Shown in pieces: positions 24,684 through 30,773 of a stretch of DNA of 64,000 nucleotides (position 1 is the stretch's first letter; each line of letters starts with the position of its first letter). The DNA is from Succiniclasticum ruminis DSM 9236. Lineage in GTDB: Bacteria > Bacillota > Negativicutes > Acidaminococcales > Acidaminococcaceae. The stretch lies in assembly GCF_900112895.1 (NCBI RefSeq), contig NZ_FONL01000002.1, forward strand, positions 186,001-250,000. Direction: 5' to 3'. Under the pieces are notes generated by a model. The model had not been told where the DNA came from, searched no databases, and worked only from the letters and a program-made list of their open reading frames with translations. Both the position numbers and the translations under genes were made by a program.

Positions 24684-26057
24684 TTATTCATACAGTTTTT
24701 GTGATTTTATGATATTTTCACAGGCCTGTAACAGCTCTTTATCCTTTTCACCTTCCATGATAATGTCGCCCATTGCCTTTACCTTACGCTTTTCACACGC
24801 AGGCCCTATCAACCGGGCTGCTGCATTGATTGCCAGTTGCCCATGTTCGAATGTAAGGCCTCCCTGCATGAACGCATTGTACGGTTCCCGCATTGGTCCG
24901 TCAGCGCTTAGTTCAATGGATGCCCCCTGAACAAACGTTCCTGCAGCCATTATAATTTTATCCTGGTATCCGGGAATGTAACTTGGAACAGGTGTTACAT
25001 GTGCGTCTACCGGTGAATTGAGTTGTACTGCCACGCAGAAATTCTCAAGATTTTTAGCTTTTTTTAATGTAATCGACTGGATAATGTCATGCCGTATCTC
25101 GCTATGCAGCGGCTTCACTTTATAGCCTAGCTTTCTGAAAACCGCCGCCGCATATATTGCTGTTAACACAGCCTGCATTACCACGTGAGGCGCCATAAAC
25201 AAACCCTGATAGAATTCCCGGGCCGTATCGCCTAACGTCGCGCCCATCTCTCCGGCAAGACCGGGGACCGTAAGACGGCAGGCCGCATTATAAACCAACT
25301 CTTCTCTTCCGACAATATAGCCTCCTGTCGGCGCAAGCCCCCCGCCCACATTTTTAATCAGGGATCCGGCCATAAGGTCTGCTCCATAATCCGTCGGCTC
25401 TTTTGCTTCCGTGAATTCGCCGTAGCAATTATCTACAAAACATATAATATCTTTACGGATTTTGTGAACCTCTTCAATCAGCCGGCCGATGGAGGCAACA
25501 TCCAGCGTGCCCCTGTCATCACTGTATCCACAGGAACGCTGTATATGCACCATCCGGGTCTTTTCGGTAATAGCGCTGCAAACAGCACGAATATCCACAT
25601 AATTGCCTGTCATGGGGACTTCTTTATAGGCAACGCCTGTATCTGTCAGCGATCCCGGTATCCTTTCAGGATACCCGATAATAGTCTGCATAGTATCGTA
25701 GGGAGTACCTGTAGCGCCAATCACTTCGTCACCGGGGTGCAAATTACCCAGCATGGCTACAGCCAGTGCATGGGTTCCGGATACAAACTGCGAACGCACC
25801 AGGGCCGATTCGGTTCCAAAAATATCCGCATAAATCGCGTCCAGTTTTTCCCTGCCTAAATCGTTATACGCATAACCGGTTGAAGGTTTCATATAAAAAT
25901 CCGATACCTGATGCTTCCGGAAAGCAGAAATTACTTTTTCGGTATTCGTTAAAGCAATTGCATCATAATAATGCTTTTGTTTTTCCACTTCCTTTCTGGC
26001 AAATTCAAAAATACTTTCTAAACAAATTGGGCTATTAAAATCCATAAACTGATTCAA
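24684..26057 (-). CDS. Methionine gamma-lyase-family (aluminium-resistance-type) PLP protein
   Basis: This 457-residue fold-type I PLP protein belongs to the Met_gamma_lyase family (PF06838), often called aluminium resistance protein. The PLP lysine is in S-L-I-K-N-V-G-G-G, the cofactor aspartate in C-F-V-D-N-C-Y-G-E, and S-G-T-H-A-L-A-V-A-M-L-G is typical of the group. A sulfur amino acid lyase activity is inferred from the fold, not shown. Its ATG overlaps the stop of hflX by four bases. Pairing with hflX is common in Firmicutes, to my knowledge. Confidence 0.85.
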   Translation of the reverse strand: MNQFMDFNSPICLESIFEFARKEVEKQKHYYDAIALTNTEKVISAFRKHQVSDFYMKPSTGYAYNDLGREKLDAIYADIFGTESALVRSQFVSGTHALAVAMLGNLHPGDEVIGATGTPYDTMQTIIGYPERIPGSLTDTGVAYKEVPMTGNYVDIRAVCSAITEKTRMVHIQRSCGYSDDRGTLDVASIGRLIEEVHKIRKDIICFVDNCYGEFTEAKEPTDYGADLMAGSLIKNVGGGLAPTGGYIVGREELVYNAACRLTVPGLAGEMGATLGDTAREFYQGLFMAPHVVMQAVLTAIYAAAVFRKLGYKVKPLHSEIRHDIIQSITLKKAKNLENFCVAVQLNSPVDAHVTPVPSYIPGYQDKIIMAAGTFVQGASIELSADGPMREPYNAFMQGGLTFEHGQLAINAAARLIGPACEKRKVKAMGDIIMEGEKDKELLQACENIIKSQKLYE

Positions 26058-27880
26058 TCCTCATCGTCTGTTGTGTATTTTTGCCAACGCTCAACATCGT
26101 TGGCCTGAAGCCTGACTTTCATCTTAATCCCCTCCGCTTCATAATCCTGCGACAGCACTGTGCCTTCTTCGAATAATCTGGCCGCAGTGCCGGATTCACT
26201 GTAGGGAATTAATAAAGTGACTTCGATTGCTTTTAATTTTAAACTGTCGGAAATGGCTGTAAGCAACGTTTCCAATCCGATCCGTTTTTTGGCGGAGATA
26301 CATACGCTGTCAGGAACTGACCTTAATTGTTCCAGAAAACCGCTGCTTTCGTCAGGCAGTTTATCGATCTTATTAAAAACACTTAAAATCGGTTTATCCT
26401 GCACGCCTGTTTCCTGCAGAACCCTGTACACTGCTTCGCTCTGCTCCTTATACAGCGGATGACTGACATCAATGACATGGACCAGCAGGTCCGCGTCCAG
26501 CGTTTCTTCTAAAGTAGATTTAAAAGCCGCAATCAGCTGATGCGGAAGACGCTGGATAAAACCTACCGTATCTGTCAGGATAGCCTGCCGCTTATCCGGA
26601 AGATTCAGCTGGCGTGTAGTGGGATCCAATGTTGCAAACAACTGGTCTTTCTCGTATACATCGGAATTAGTCAGCACATTAAGTAACGTTGACTTACCCG
26701 CATTAGTATATCCGATCAGGCTGACTGACGGAACCTGGTTCTTATTGCGGTAAGACCGGTGAAGCTTGCGCACATTCTGAACCTTGTCAATGCAGCCCTT
26801 TATGTACGCGATACGGTCACGAATCATACGGCGGTCTGTTTCCAGCTTGGTTTCGCCGGGCCCCCGGGTACCGATTCCGCCGCCTAAGCGGGAAAGGGAA
26901 AGCCCCTGCCCCATGATGCGAGGCAGCGTATACTGCAGCTGGGCCAGTTCAACCTGCAGTTTGCCTTCATTCGTCTGGGCACGCTGGGCAAAAATATCAA
27001 GAATCAGCGCTGTACGGTCCAGCACTTTTATACCCAGCGACTGTTCCAGATTCCGCTGCTGGGCAGGAGATAATTCTTCGTCAAAGACGCACAGGTCGAT
27101 ATCTTCCTGCTGTGCATATAATGCCAGATCACGCACTTTACCGCGCCCGATAAAAAATCCCGGATCCGGTTTAGGACGCTTCTGCAGAAATTTGGCGATC
27201 ACCTCGGCCCCTGCCGTCTCGGCCAGCTGGCGCAGCTCCTCCAGCGAATCCTCGCTGGTCCACAGCCTGTCCTGCTTCCCGTATTCCAGACTTACCAGAA
27301 TAGTACGTTCCGGTCTCTGCTCAAGCTTCTGGTTATCGTCGGTTACAGCCAAAAGTTTTTCTGCCGAACTGATAATATTTGGCAGAAACAATGTTTCCAG
27401 CACCTCCGGTTTGAATACGCCATATTCCTGAACCGTGTACTGTCCATACTCGTCCTTTCCCGTAATAATTGCAAAGTCGAACACAAACTCTTCCGGCTTT
27501 TCATCGTTCACGCCGATAGCAGCCATCAGATCATATTTATGGCTTCGCAAAGCAGACAGATCGATCCCGCTTAATTGCGAATTCCCGCCCGGATGCGTAT
27601 GGATACAGCGAATCCCGCTTAAACGTCCGCTTCCCCGCCTGCCCGGCAGATCCGGCAGCGAAACCGTATTGCTGTCGCCCACGGAAACGCTTAGTACGTT
27701 TCCCTTGCGATCCAGAAATATGTTCACCTCGCGGTTTATGGCGCCCGTGATTTTTGCCATCTGTATTGCAATTTCCGGGGACACCAGCTGCCAGGGAGGG
27801 ACCCGTAGCTGGTACAGCTGTTCCAGCATTGCGATAATGTTATTTTTTAATCCTTCTGTATTCCCCAGAATTTCTTTCAT
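26054..27880 (-). CDS. hflX: GTPase HflX, long form with an extra N-terminal domain
   Basis: HflX rescues stalled ribosomes. The central glycine-rich G-x-G-E-T-K-L-E-T-D segment precedes the GTPase. G1 G-Y-T-N-A-G-K-S is at residues 390-397, followed by D-T-V-G-F and N-K-I-D. At 608 residues it exceeds the ~430 of E. coli HflX. The first ~185 residues form an extra domain holding H94-T-H96-P, then six residues, then S104-x-x-D107: the JAMM/RadC metal signature, with Glu51 as a possible distal acid. The domain may be metal-binding or a dead relic. Confidence 0.9.
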   Translation of the reverse strand: MKEILGNTEGLKNNIIAMLEQLYQLRVPPWQLVSPEIAIQMAKITGAINREVNIFLDRKGNVLSVSVGDSNTVSLPDLPGRRGSGRLSGIRCIHTHPGGNSQLSGIDLSALRSHKYDLMAAIGVNDEKPEEFVFDFAIITGKDEYGQYTVQEYGVFKPEVLETLFLPNIISSAEKLLAVTDDNQKLEQRPERTILVSLEYGKQDRLWTSEDSLEELRQLAETAGAEVIAKFLQKRPKPDPGFFIGRGKVRDLALYAQQEDIDLCVFDEELSPAQQRNLEQSLGIKVLDRTALILDIFAQRAQTNEGKLQVELAQLQYTLPRIMGQGLSLSRLGGGIGTRGPGETKLETDRRMIRDRIAYIKGCIDKVQNVRKLHRSYRNKNQVPSVSLIGYTNAGKSTLLNVLTNSDVYEKDQLFATLDPTTRQLNLPDKRQAILTDTVGFIQRLPHQLIAAFKSTLEETLDADLLVHVIDVSHPLYKEQSEAVYRVLQETGVQDKPILSVFNKIDKLPDESSGFLEQLRSVPDSVCISAKKRIGLETLLTAISDSLKLKAIEVTLLIPYSESGTAARLFEEGTVLSQDYEAEGIKMKVRLQANDVERWQKYTTDDED

Positions 27881-27895
27881 TCCAGACCCAACTCC

Positions 27896-29503
27896 TTAAT
27901 CTTTGGAATGCGCCGGCTCAATATTTACCTTGTAACCGCGGATACTGTTTTTATGCATAACCGCCAACACCTTTTCGGCATACTGCTCCGGTACCTCGAC
28001 AAAGGAAAATTTATCAAAAATATTAATCAGACCAATGGAACGGCCGGGAATATCAGCTTCCCTGGCAATCGTCCGCACCAGTTCGGGAACCGTAATCTTC
28101 TGGCTGCGCCCAACATTCAGGAAGAACCGCACCATGCCGGGACGGCCGCCGGTATTAGCCAGACTCTGATCCGTCAGATCGCTGATAGTGTTCTTTTCTT
28201 CCGTAATTTCAAGGGCTCTGTTCCCTTCCTGCATCAGTTTCAGCGCAGCTGCGGCAATTTCTTCCAGTTCGTATTCCTTGCTTAACGCAGTCACAACCGG
28301 CATGTAATTGCCGTAATTCCCCATTTCCAGCAGGGACTGCATCCTGGAGATGATCTGCTCCCGCTGGTGCTCCAGAACATCGCTGGTAGTCGGCAGTTCA
28401 CGGCGGCGGATACGCGTTTTTGCAATCCGTTCTATCAGTTTTAACTGACGGAATTCCCTGGGAAGAATGAACGTCAGCGCCACGCCGGTATTGCCTGCCC
28501 GTCCGGTACGGCCAATACGGTGCACGTAACTCTCCGGATCCTGCGGTATATCAAAGTTGATGACATATTGCACGTTATCAATATCCAGACCGCGGGCCGC
28601 CACATCTGTGGCAATTAAAATGTCCAGACGCCCTTCCCTGAACTTTTTCATGACACGGTCACGCTGGGCCTGGGATAAATCCCCATGCAGTCCTTCCGCT
28701 ATATATCCTCTGCTTCCCAACGAGGCCGTCAAATCATCAACACCCCGTTTGGTGCGGCAGAAGATGATGCTTTTTCCTTCGATACCCGCATCCAGCAGGC
28801 GGGAAATTCCTTCGATTTTATCACGGGTCTCAAAATAATACTGATCAATCAGAGGCACCGTGATTTCTTCTTTACTCACCGTTACTATCTGGGGAGCCCG
28901 CATGTATTTTTTGGTCAGGCTAAGGATCGGACGGGGCATGGTCGCGGAAAACAGCATGGTCTGCCGTTCAGACGGAACGCTCGCCATGATTTCTTCCATG
29001 TCTTCAACAAAACCCATATCCAGCATTTCATCTGCCTCGTCCAGAACAAGGTAGCGGACATAGTTCAGCTTGATTGTCCCCCGGCGGATATGATCCAGCA
29101 AGCGTCCCGGCGTGCCGATGACAATCTGCACACCGCTCTTCAGGGCGCGAATCTGCCGTTCAATAGGCTGGCCGCCGTAAACGGGAACTACTTTGATGCG
29201 TTTATTACAGCCAATCTTCGCGATTTCTTCCGCAATCTGGATTGCCAGTTCACGGGTGGGGCTCATGATCAGCGCCTGAATATGCCGGCGGTCTTCAATC
29301 CCCTGGATAATGGGAATGCCAAACGCAGCCGTTTTTCCTGTTCCGGTCTGTGCCTGCCCGATTATATCCCTGCCTTCCAGCAATAATGGAATTGCCTGTT
29401 GCTGGATCGGCGACGGTTCTTCAAACCCCATCTCCTTTAAGGCAGCAACAACACGCTTTTCCAGTACCAATTCTCCAAAACTATCTGTCTGCATCATGGT
29501 CAT
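27896..29503 (-). CDS. DEAD-box RNA helicase with DbpA-type RNA-binding tail
   Basis: ATG 29503 is chosen because GGAGG lies 8 bases upstream; it overlaps the end of cinA by ~22 bases. Motifs in order are A-Q-T-G-T-G-K-T (I), P-T-R-E-L-A (Ia), D-E-A-D (II), S-A-T (III), and H-R-I-G-R-T-G-R-A-G (VI). Residues ~455-530 form a DbpA RNA-binding domain (V-G-R-S-Q-K-I-T-V through S-F-V-E-V-P). The CshA/DeaD role in mRNA decay or ribosome assembly fits. It sits in one minus-strand run with cinA and hflX. Confidence 0.92.
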   Translation of the reverse strand: MTMMQTDSFGELVLEKRVVAALKEMGFEEPSPIQQQAIPLLLEGRDIIGQAQTGTGKTAAFGIPIIQGIEDRRHIQALIMSPTRELAIQIAEEIAKIGCNKRIKVVPVYGGQPIERQIRALKSGVQIVIGTPGRLLDHIRRGTIKLNYVRYLVLDEADEMLDMGFVEDMEEIMASVPSERQTMLFSATMPRPILSLTKKYMRAPQIVTVSKEEITVPLIDQYYFETRDKIEGISRLLDAGIEGKSIIFCRTKRGVDDLTASLGSRGYIAEGLHGDLSQAQRDRVMKKFREGRLDILIATDVAARGLDIDNVQYVINFDIPQDPESYVHRIGRTGRAGNTGVALTFILPREFRQLKLIERIAKTRIRRRELPTTSDVLEHQREQIISRMQSLLEMGNYGNYMPVVTALSKEYELEEIAAAALKLMQEGNRALEITEEKNTISDLTDQSLANTGGRPGMVRFFLNVGRSQKITVPELVRTIAREADIPGRSIGLINIFDKFSFVEVPEQYAEKVLAVMHKNSIRGYKVNIEPAHSKD

Positions 29504-30773
29504 CAGTGGTTTCCTCCAAATCATTCTGTGCCGTATATTCTTTCAGCCGGTCCAGCGCCAATCCCAAAGCGGTCAAAGCCGCCCTCTGTTTGATTTGTGT
29601 ACGTGTCCCGGTAAAATTATATTTCCGGCACGACGCGCCATTTTCATCCGCAACAGCTATATAAACAAGTCCCACCGGTTTCCTGCGGGTTCCCCCGCCG
29701 GGCCCGGCCAGCCCCGTAATACTCACCGCCATATCGGAGCCGATTACGTTCCGTACGCCTTCGGCCATTTCCAGGGCAGCCTCTTCACTCACCGCGCCTT
29801 TTTTTGAAAGCGTGGTTTTACTGACGTTGATCACCAGGTTTTTCACTTCGTTTGTATACGAAATCACAGAACCTTTCACATACTCGGAACTGCCTGGCAC
29901 ATCGGTCATCAGGCTGGATGCCAGTCCGCCGGTACAGGATTCCGCAAACGCGATTGTCTGCTTCCTGGTTAAAAGCTCTTTCCCCAGCACTTCAGGCAGG
30001 GTGTCTCCGTCATAACCGTAAACATATGGACCGATAATCTTTTCCACCCGTTCCTGCATGGCAGCAATCAGCGCGTCCGCCTCCTCCGCGGAAGAAGCTT
30101 TGGCAGTCAGCCGCACCAGAATTTCCCCGTGCCGTGCATAGAGGGCAATGGTAGGATTCGACTGGTGGACAATAATGTCGTCCAGCATCTCGGCCAGATT
30201 CGACTCGCCGATACCCCGTACCTTCAGCGTATGGGATTTGATAATTCCCAAATGGGGAAACCGCTGTTCAAAATACGGGAATAATTCCTGTTCGCAAACA
30301 TGCTGCAATTCAAAAGGCGGTCCCGGAAGCATGATGAATGTGGTACTTCCATGCTCGAGTACAAGCCCCGGAGCTGTTCCCACCGCGTTATGCAAAACAA
30401 TGGCGCCGCTGGGAACCAGGGCCTGCTTTTCGTTATTAGACGCAATACAGATGTTCCGTCTGGATAACAGGTCGTGGATATGGTTCCACACTTCCAGATT
30501 CATATACATATCTACGCCGCAATACTCCGCAACCAGTTCCTTGGTAATATCACCCCGGGTGGGTCCCAGCCCTCCACTGGTGATGACGATATCAGCACGC
30601 CCGGCAGCAATATCCAGCACCTCTTTCATTCGCGCCGGATTATCTCCTACTGTGGTCTGATACAAAACATCAAAACCGCGAAGATTTAATTCCTGTGCCA
30701 GCCAGGTAAAGTTCGTGTTTAAAATTTCTCCCAGAAGAAGTTCCGTACCGGTTGTGATAACCTCTACTTTCAA
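29481..30773 (-). CDS. cinA: CinA: competence/damage-inducible protein with NMN deamidase domain
   Basis: Full-length two-domain CinA (430 aa). The N-terminal molybdopterin-binding-like domain shows T-G-T-E-L-L-L-G-E-I-L and T-S-G-G-L-G-P-T-R-G-D, giving a pyrophosphatase. The C-terminal PncC domain has A-E-S-C-T-G-G-L and G-L-A-G-P-G-G-G-T and deamidates nicotinamide mononucleotide. It heads the cinA, helicase, hflX and lyase run. No LexA box was found at its promoter, despite the name. Confidence 0.93.
   Translation of the reverse strand: MKVEVITTGTELLLGEILNTNFTWLAQELNLRGFDVLYQTTVGDNPARMKEVLDIAAGRADIVITSGGLGPTRGDITKELVAEYCGVDMYMNLEVWNHIHDLLSRRNICIASNNEKQALVPSGAIVLHNAVGTAPGLVLEHGSTTFIMLPGPPFELQHVCEQELFPYFEQRFPHLGIIKSHTLKVRGIGESNLAEMLDDIIVHQSNPTIALYARHGEILVRLTAKASSAEEADALIAAMQERVEKIIGPYVYGYDGDTLPEVLGKELLTRKQTIAFAESCTGGLASSLMTDVPGSSEYVKGSVISYTNEVKNLVINVSKTTLSKKGAVSEEAALEMAEGVRNVIGSDMAVSITGLAGPGGGTRRKPVGLVYIAVADENGASCRKYNFTGTRTQIKQRAALTALGLALDRLKEYTAQNDLEETTDDHDADR

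Follow-up and report, generated by a model that had tools for sequence, protein, structure and literature searches.

The first 183 residues of the HflX protein of Succiniclasticum ruminis DSM 9236 are best read, with a probability that we put at roughly 0.68, as a true JAMM (MPN+) metallohydrolase, likely an (iso)peptidase, which would be tethered by a linker to the ribosome-splitting GTPase and carried by it to the 50S intersubunit face. Computation shows the homology and fold of this domain, the joint conservation of its five site residues, its occurrence exclusively in fusion with HflX, a descent mostly shared with the HflX core, and purifying selection. We infer zinc binding, catalysis, a peptide-type substrate, and the place of action, and an enzymatic function of the JAMM-HflX protein is predicted as likely. 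The fusion itself is real, combining two known kinds of protein, and is apparently unreported. The gene and its parts lie on the minus strand of the window, the 64,000-nucleotide stretch of the S. ruminis genome that was analysed, as follows.

26054-27880 (-): hflX, 608 aa with an ATG start, an ORF in which a JAMM domain is fused to the HflX GTPase.
27332-27880 (-): N-terminal JAMM/MPN domain, residues 1 to about 183, supported by AlphaFold2 and by structure and profile matches.
27728-27730 (-): E51, the presumed general base; invariant in 35 homologues, first residue of strand 51-56.
27593-27601 (-): H94-T95-H96, of which H94 (27599-27601) and H96 (27593-27595) are the presumed zinc ligands; invariant in 35 homologues, end of strand 91-96.
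27560-27571 (-): S104-x-x-D107, with the presumed oxyanion serine (27569-27571) and zinc-ligand aspartate (27560-27562); invariant in 35 homologues, start of helix 105-114.
27611-27676 (-): mobile loop at residues 69-90; TVxLP and RRxxxRLSG are conserved in the alignment, and pLDDT is low at 71-80 in the domain model and 73-81 in the full-length model.
27311-27331 (-): flexible linker, residues 184-190; in the full-length model residues 184-187 have a pLDDT below 50.
26057-27310 (-): HflX core, residues 191-608, comprising GTP-bdg_N, GTP-bdg_M, the G domain and the C-terminal domain (Pfam).

Apart from its N-terminus, the protein is an ordinary HflX. Residues 191-608 contain all of the Pfam parts in order (PF13167 at 210-298, PF16360 at 300-378, and PF01926 at 386-504), and the protein passes the TIGR03156 equivalog cut-off (491.7 bits versus 216.75, residues 193-546), the only HflX in the genome to do so. 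By homology it would be expected to split 70S ribosomes in a GTP-dependent manner. Whereas in E. coli-type HflX and in 62 sampled domain-free HflX proteins the N-terminus lies no more than about 10-107 residues from the core, here a JAMM domain of 183 residues precedes it. The HflX proteins that are under study, those of E. coli, Listeria, and mycobacteria, are not known to have a JAMM domain.

The candidate site had been singled out by a sequence-only reading of positions 27535-27730. In the translated hflX ORF the residues H94-T-H96-P, S104, and D107 are present exactly as that reading had claimed (residues 94-107 are HTHPGGNSQLSGID; the JAMM stretch reads I-H94-T-H96-P-G-G-N-S-Q-L-S104-G-I-D107), and E51, contained within NREVNIFLD, precedes the HxH in the order and at the spacing of a JAMM site. 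The codons of all five residues fall within the interval. The pattern HxHPx6SxxD arose in none of 20,000 shuffles of the HflX protein, and the looser HxHx7SxxD in 4 of 20,000. Across 35 homologous N-terminal domains, which are 31-84% identical to that of S. ruminis and were picked partly by the motif, the residues G6, E51, R58, G60, G68, R91, H94, T95, H96, S104, D107, and D117 are invariant. Because this set had been chosen partly by the motif, a census was made from copies fetched by whole-domain searches in which the motif was not required, leaving out loci recruited by the HTHP pattern; in this census the full set of E51, H94, H96, S104, and D107 is present in about 101 of the 109 complete copies (one further copy, outside the 109, ends at a contig end). 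In known JAMM enzymes two histidines and an aspartate hold the zinc, while a glutamate serves as the general base and a serine stabilises the oxyanion; the residues equivalent to E51 and S104 are thus not metal ligands, and their conservation along with the ligands points to catalysis rather than merely to a structural zinc. The N-terminal domain is under purifying selection, with a within-genus median dN/dS of about 0.055 versus 0.039 for the HflX core, both values being rough with dS near saturation.

Recognition of the domain by existing models is faint for the single sequence and clearer for the family. S. ruminis HflX alone scores against Prok-JAB with an E of 0.06, under the Pfam cut-off, and does not match PF04002, the RadC model; within the family, Prok-JAB is matched by 24 of the 35 members (best 5.5e-5) and the RadC model, weakly, by nine (best 5e-4). 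No model in Pfam or NCBIfam describes the domain. When the 35-member profile is compared with PDB sequences, the JAMM proteases AMSH-LP, Sst2, and AMSH rank first (E 0.024 and up). These share with the HflX domain the E...HTHP-x6-S-x2-D site, but the HflX domain has a shorter spacing from E to H (43 residues), is fused to a GTPase, and resides in a bacterium in which no eukaryote-type ubiquitin is expected. Alignment by hhalign with 18 RadC domains gives an E of 2.4e-5 with the sites aligned, compared to 0.67 for a negative control with unrelated neighbour proteins, and the one non-HflX protein that the domain profile picks up in 299 genomes is a genuine RadC (E 8e-5). RadC (PF04002) thus carries a related JAMM domain; however, it has HNHP with GDPxPS (HNHPSGDPxPS) and an N-terminal half of its own, whereas the HflX domain has HTHP...LS. 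With a different motif and no PF04002 match, the HflX domain does not appear to be a RadC.

The predicted structure is consistent with a JAMM assignment. The AlphaFold2 model of the N-terminal domain, made with a 35-row alignment, has a pLDDT of 90.5 and a pTM of 0.86; in it E51 opens strand 51-56, H94 and H96 close strand 91-96, and S104 and D107 lie at the start of helix 105-114, so that the modelled site residues stand in the JAMM layout. The top Foldseek matches, none of them at an E of 0.001 or less, are RadC (2qlc) and MPN subunits of the proteasome lid and the COP9 signalosome, a ranking that agrees with an MPN fold. Among PDB structures, VIA-align places Pyrococcus furiosus JAMM1 (PfJAMM1) first (Z 7.4, 112 residues, 3.5 A), followed by RadC, AF2198, Rpn11, CSN5, and BRCC36, all with Z below 8. 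Nearly all of the best 50 rows are MPN/JAMM proteins, the titles of two or three (e.g. 2kks and 8eoi_H) not being readable as such. A Z below 8 could by itself mean just a common arrangement; here the weight lies in one superfamily filling the list, with its motif also present. JAMM1 and Archaeoglobus AF2198 (Z 7.4 and 6.5), the best structural matches, exemplify the small prokaryotic JAMM fold, but they are only 14-17% identical to the HflX domain and have no GTPase partner; the JAMM1 structure, according to its title, was solved with the ubiquitin-like SAMP2. The MPN-like fold and the joint conservation that the sequence-only reading had named as checks are thus both found, and together they support its assignment of the long HflX N-terminal domain to the JAMM type.

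In the full-length model (pTM 0.59) the linker is disordered at 184-187 and the position of the domain is not fixed, which would fit a tethered domain. The loop at 69-90 is partly mobile in the models yet conserved in the alignment, and it would stand where Ins-1 lies in deubiquitinases. Deubiquitinases of the JAMM type hold the ubiquitin tail at the corresponding place.

The mechanism that we propose would begin with HflX binding the 50S intersubunit face and splitting the 70S ribosome, by which the JAMM domain would be brought to stalled or newly split ribosomes. There a peptide or isopeptide bond would be cleaved at a zinc site formed by H94, H96, and D107, in which E51 would serve as the general base and S104 would stabilise the oxyanion; the target, a ribosome-bound protein, peptide, or tag, would be held by the mobile TVxLP/RR loop. 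Candidate substrates are ribosomal proteins, factors bound to the ribosome, and peptides or tags on ribosomes that have stalled. Some guidance as to place comes from Mycobacterium smegmatis, in which an N-terminal extension of HflX makes contact with uL16 and with helix 38 and extends to the H69-71 junction (PMC12493154). Like the JAMM domain, this extension is an N-terminal addition, and it acts at the 50S intersubunit face; it differs in having only 39-58 residues and no reported enzyme fold. By analogy, the JAMM domain would most likely sit near uL16, helix 38, and H69-71, on the face that is exposed by splitting. The same paper mentions extensions in 'several Clostridium spp.' and does not identify the JAMM domain there (PMC12493154).

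A more specific version of this mechanism, which we offer tentatively and at somewhat less than even odds, is that a large group of bacteria would have a factor for ribosome rescue that includes its own JAMM protease. Acting on ribosomes that have stalled or have just been split, it would remove a peptide that is trapped or covalently attached there, whether a nascent chain, a tail, a tag, or a ribosomal protein that has been modified. Such a factor would be a bacterial counterpart of the deubiquitinases that serve ribosome quality control in eukaryotes. Against the reading of the domain as a JAMM (iso)peptidase stand the sub-cut-off Prok-JAB score, the lack of a Foldseek match at an E of 0.001 or less, the Z values below 8, the existence of degenerate copies, the lack of a partner, E1, or ubiquitin-like gene among the neighbours listed, and the unfixed position of the domain.

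The degenerate copies number eight, in four families: four in f106, all from one genus, two in f62, and one each in f114 and f105, the last entered by hand. The H94/H96 pair survives in none of them. On the HflX core tree f105, f62, and f114 fall in a well-supported clade that has lost E51, H94, and S104 and yet retains most of a further layer of conservation (NRRGxV, RRxxxRLSGLR, and D117), weakest in f105, while the f106 copies have lost the HxH and retain E, S, and D. The loci concerned (L206, L207, L208, L209, L210, L213, L214, and L222) are natural MPN- forms of HflX, in which the site is lost and other conserved positions are retained. Since the region persists in these families without an active site, some copies of the domain do without catalysis. 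Conservation in the domain appears to fall into two layers: a catalytic one, kept by most lineages, and another that persists after the catalytic one is lost and perhaps serves for contact with the ribosome or with other parts of HflX; the degenerate lineages suggest a second, non-catalytic role.

It could be argued from these copies that the MPN fold is a ribosome- or rRNA-contacting module only, its metal site being structural or a zinc sensor that performs no chemistry. Retention of R58, G60, RRxxxRLSGLR, and D117 after the loss of E51, H94, H96, and S104 would be expected of such a module, and MPN- domains devoid of activity are common in eukaryotic complexes; moreover, the mycobacterial extension helps splitting with no reported enzyme fold (PMC12493154). 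However, a structural zinc needs neither E51 nor S104, and these non-ligand residues are kept with the zinc ligands in about 101 of 109 copies, which makes a purely structural zinc the less likely explanation and a wholly non-catalytic module rather improbable. Less probable still, and in our view doubtful, is a hydrolase that acts on nucleic acid, a nucleotide, or another small molecule, as RadC may. The profile does align with RadC among bacterial families, RadC structures rank high, and the RR loop, being basic and conserved, could bind RNA; but the JAMM enzymes that have been characterised cut peptide or isopeptide bonds, and the best PDB profile matches are proteases of the AMSH type. As for a chance resemblance within an unrelated domain, the score of S. 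ruminis HflX alone, under the Pfam cut-off, is the one point in its favour, and the shuffle test, the invariance in divergent homologues, the fold, and the profile matches rule it out for practical purposes.

Of 299 genomes sampled within the phylum, 228 encode HflX, and nearly all of these have a single copy; the JAMM domain is found in about 54 of the 299, there exclusively on HflX ORFs; 55 of 60 near relatives carry it. A core-pattern scan of 84,980 genomes yielded 460 confirmed relatives, and the domain is also present in Fusobacterium, where WP_016339937.1 is annotated merely as 'GTPase HflX'. On a tree of 90 HflX cores, many of whose deep branches are weak, the domain label is clustered, with 11 changes compared to about 30 when labels are shuffled. 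Distances between domains correlate with those between cores (Mantel r 0.77, permutation maximum 0.13), indicating that the two have mostly travelled together. An intact-site JAMM domain on the HflX of many Firmicutes and of Fusobacterium suggests a cutting enzyme delivered to ribosomes, and a hydrolase-like domain confined to HflX in hundreds of species, including the gut genera Phascolarctobacterium and Fusobacterium, would imply an overlooked proteolytic or de-modifying step in ribosome rescue. Among 5.39 million open papers no relevant one was found that joins HflX with JAMM, JAB, MPN, RadC, or deubiquitinase; subscription papers and InterPro/CDD lay outside this search, so an unnoticed database note is possible. 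A 2006 survey of bacterial JAB proteins makes no mention of HflX (PMC1779556).

In the S. ruminis genome, the only other JAMM/JAB protein found is RadC, encoded by a separate radC gene. Upstream of hflX, a gene at 27896-29524 (minus strand) ends 15 bases before it and encodes a DEAD-box helicase that has an RNA-binding domain of the DbpA type (PF03880); this helicase also occurs upstream of hflX in Phascolarctobacterium loci, and helicase and hflX may form an operon of 50S-related factors. Downstream, a gene of the methionine gamma-lyase family (PF06838; 24684-26057, minus strand) has a 4-base overlap with the hflX stop and is the gene after hflX in most of the Negativicutes loci examined. The 39 neighbouring proteins of family members include methionine gamma-lyase, ribonucleotide reductase, and a SPOUT methyltransferase. 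Neither an E1 nor a ubiquitin-like gene is among the 25 of 32 Pfam families listed for these neighbours, which offer no clue to the substrate, and outside Negativicutes no conserved partner gene adjoins JAMM-hflX.

Neither phage nor plasmid origin of the fusion was borne out: the lone viral contig with hflX probably represents a piece of a bacterial chromosome, and both plasmid records come from Fusobacterium, being replicons of 0.2 and 2.1 Mb. On one replicon labelled as a plasmid, the 219-kb pSB029A of Fusobacterium animalis (L267), JAMM-hflX lies between a shikimate kinase gene and a WYL-domain gene. One genome of the class (G045) has two JAMM-HflX copies (L311 and L312), both with intact sites. 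Finally, in family f72 (L162, L167, L169, and L175) the HflX frames are 740-830 aa long and the GTPase motif lies near residue 210-240, which indicates a long extra C-terminal part.
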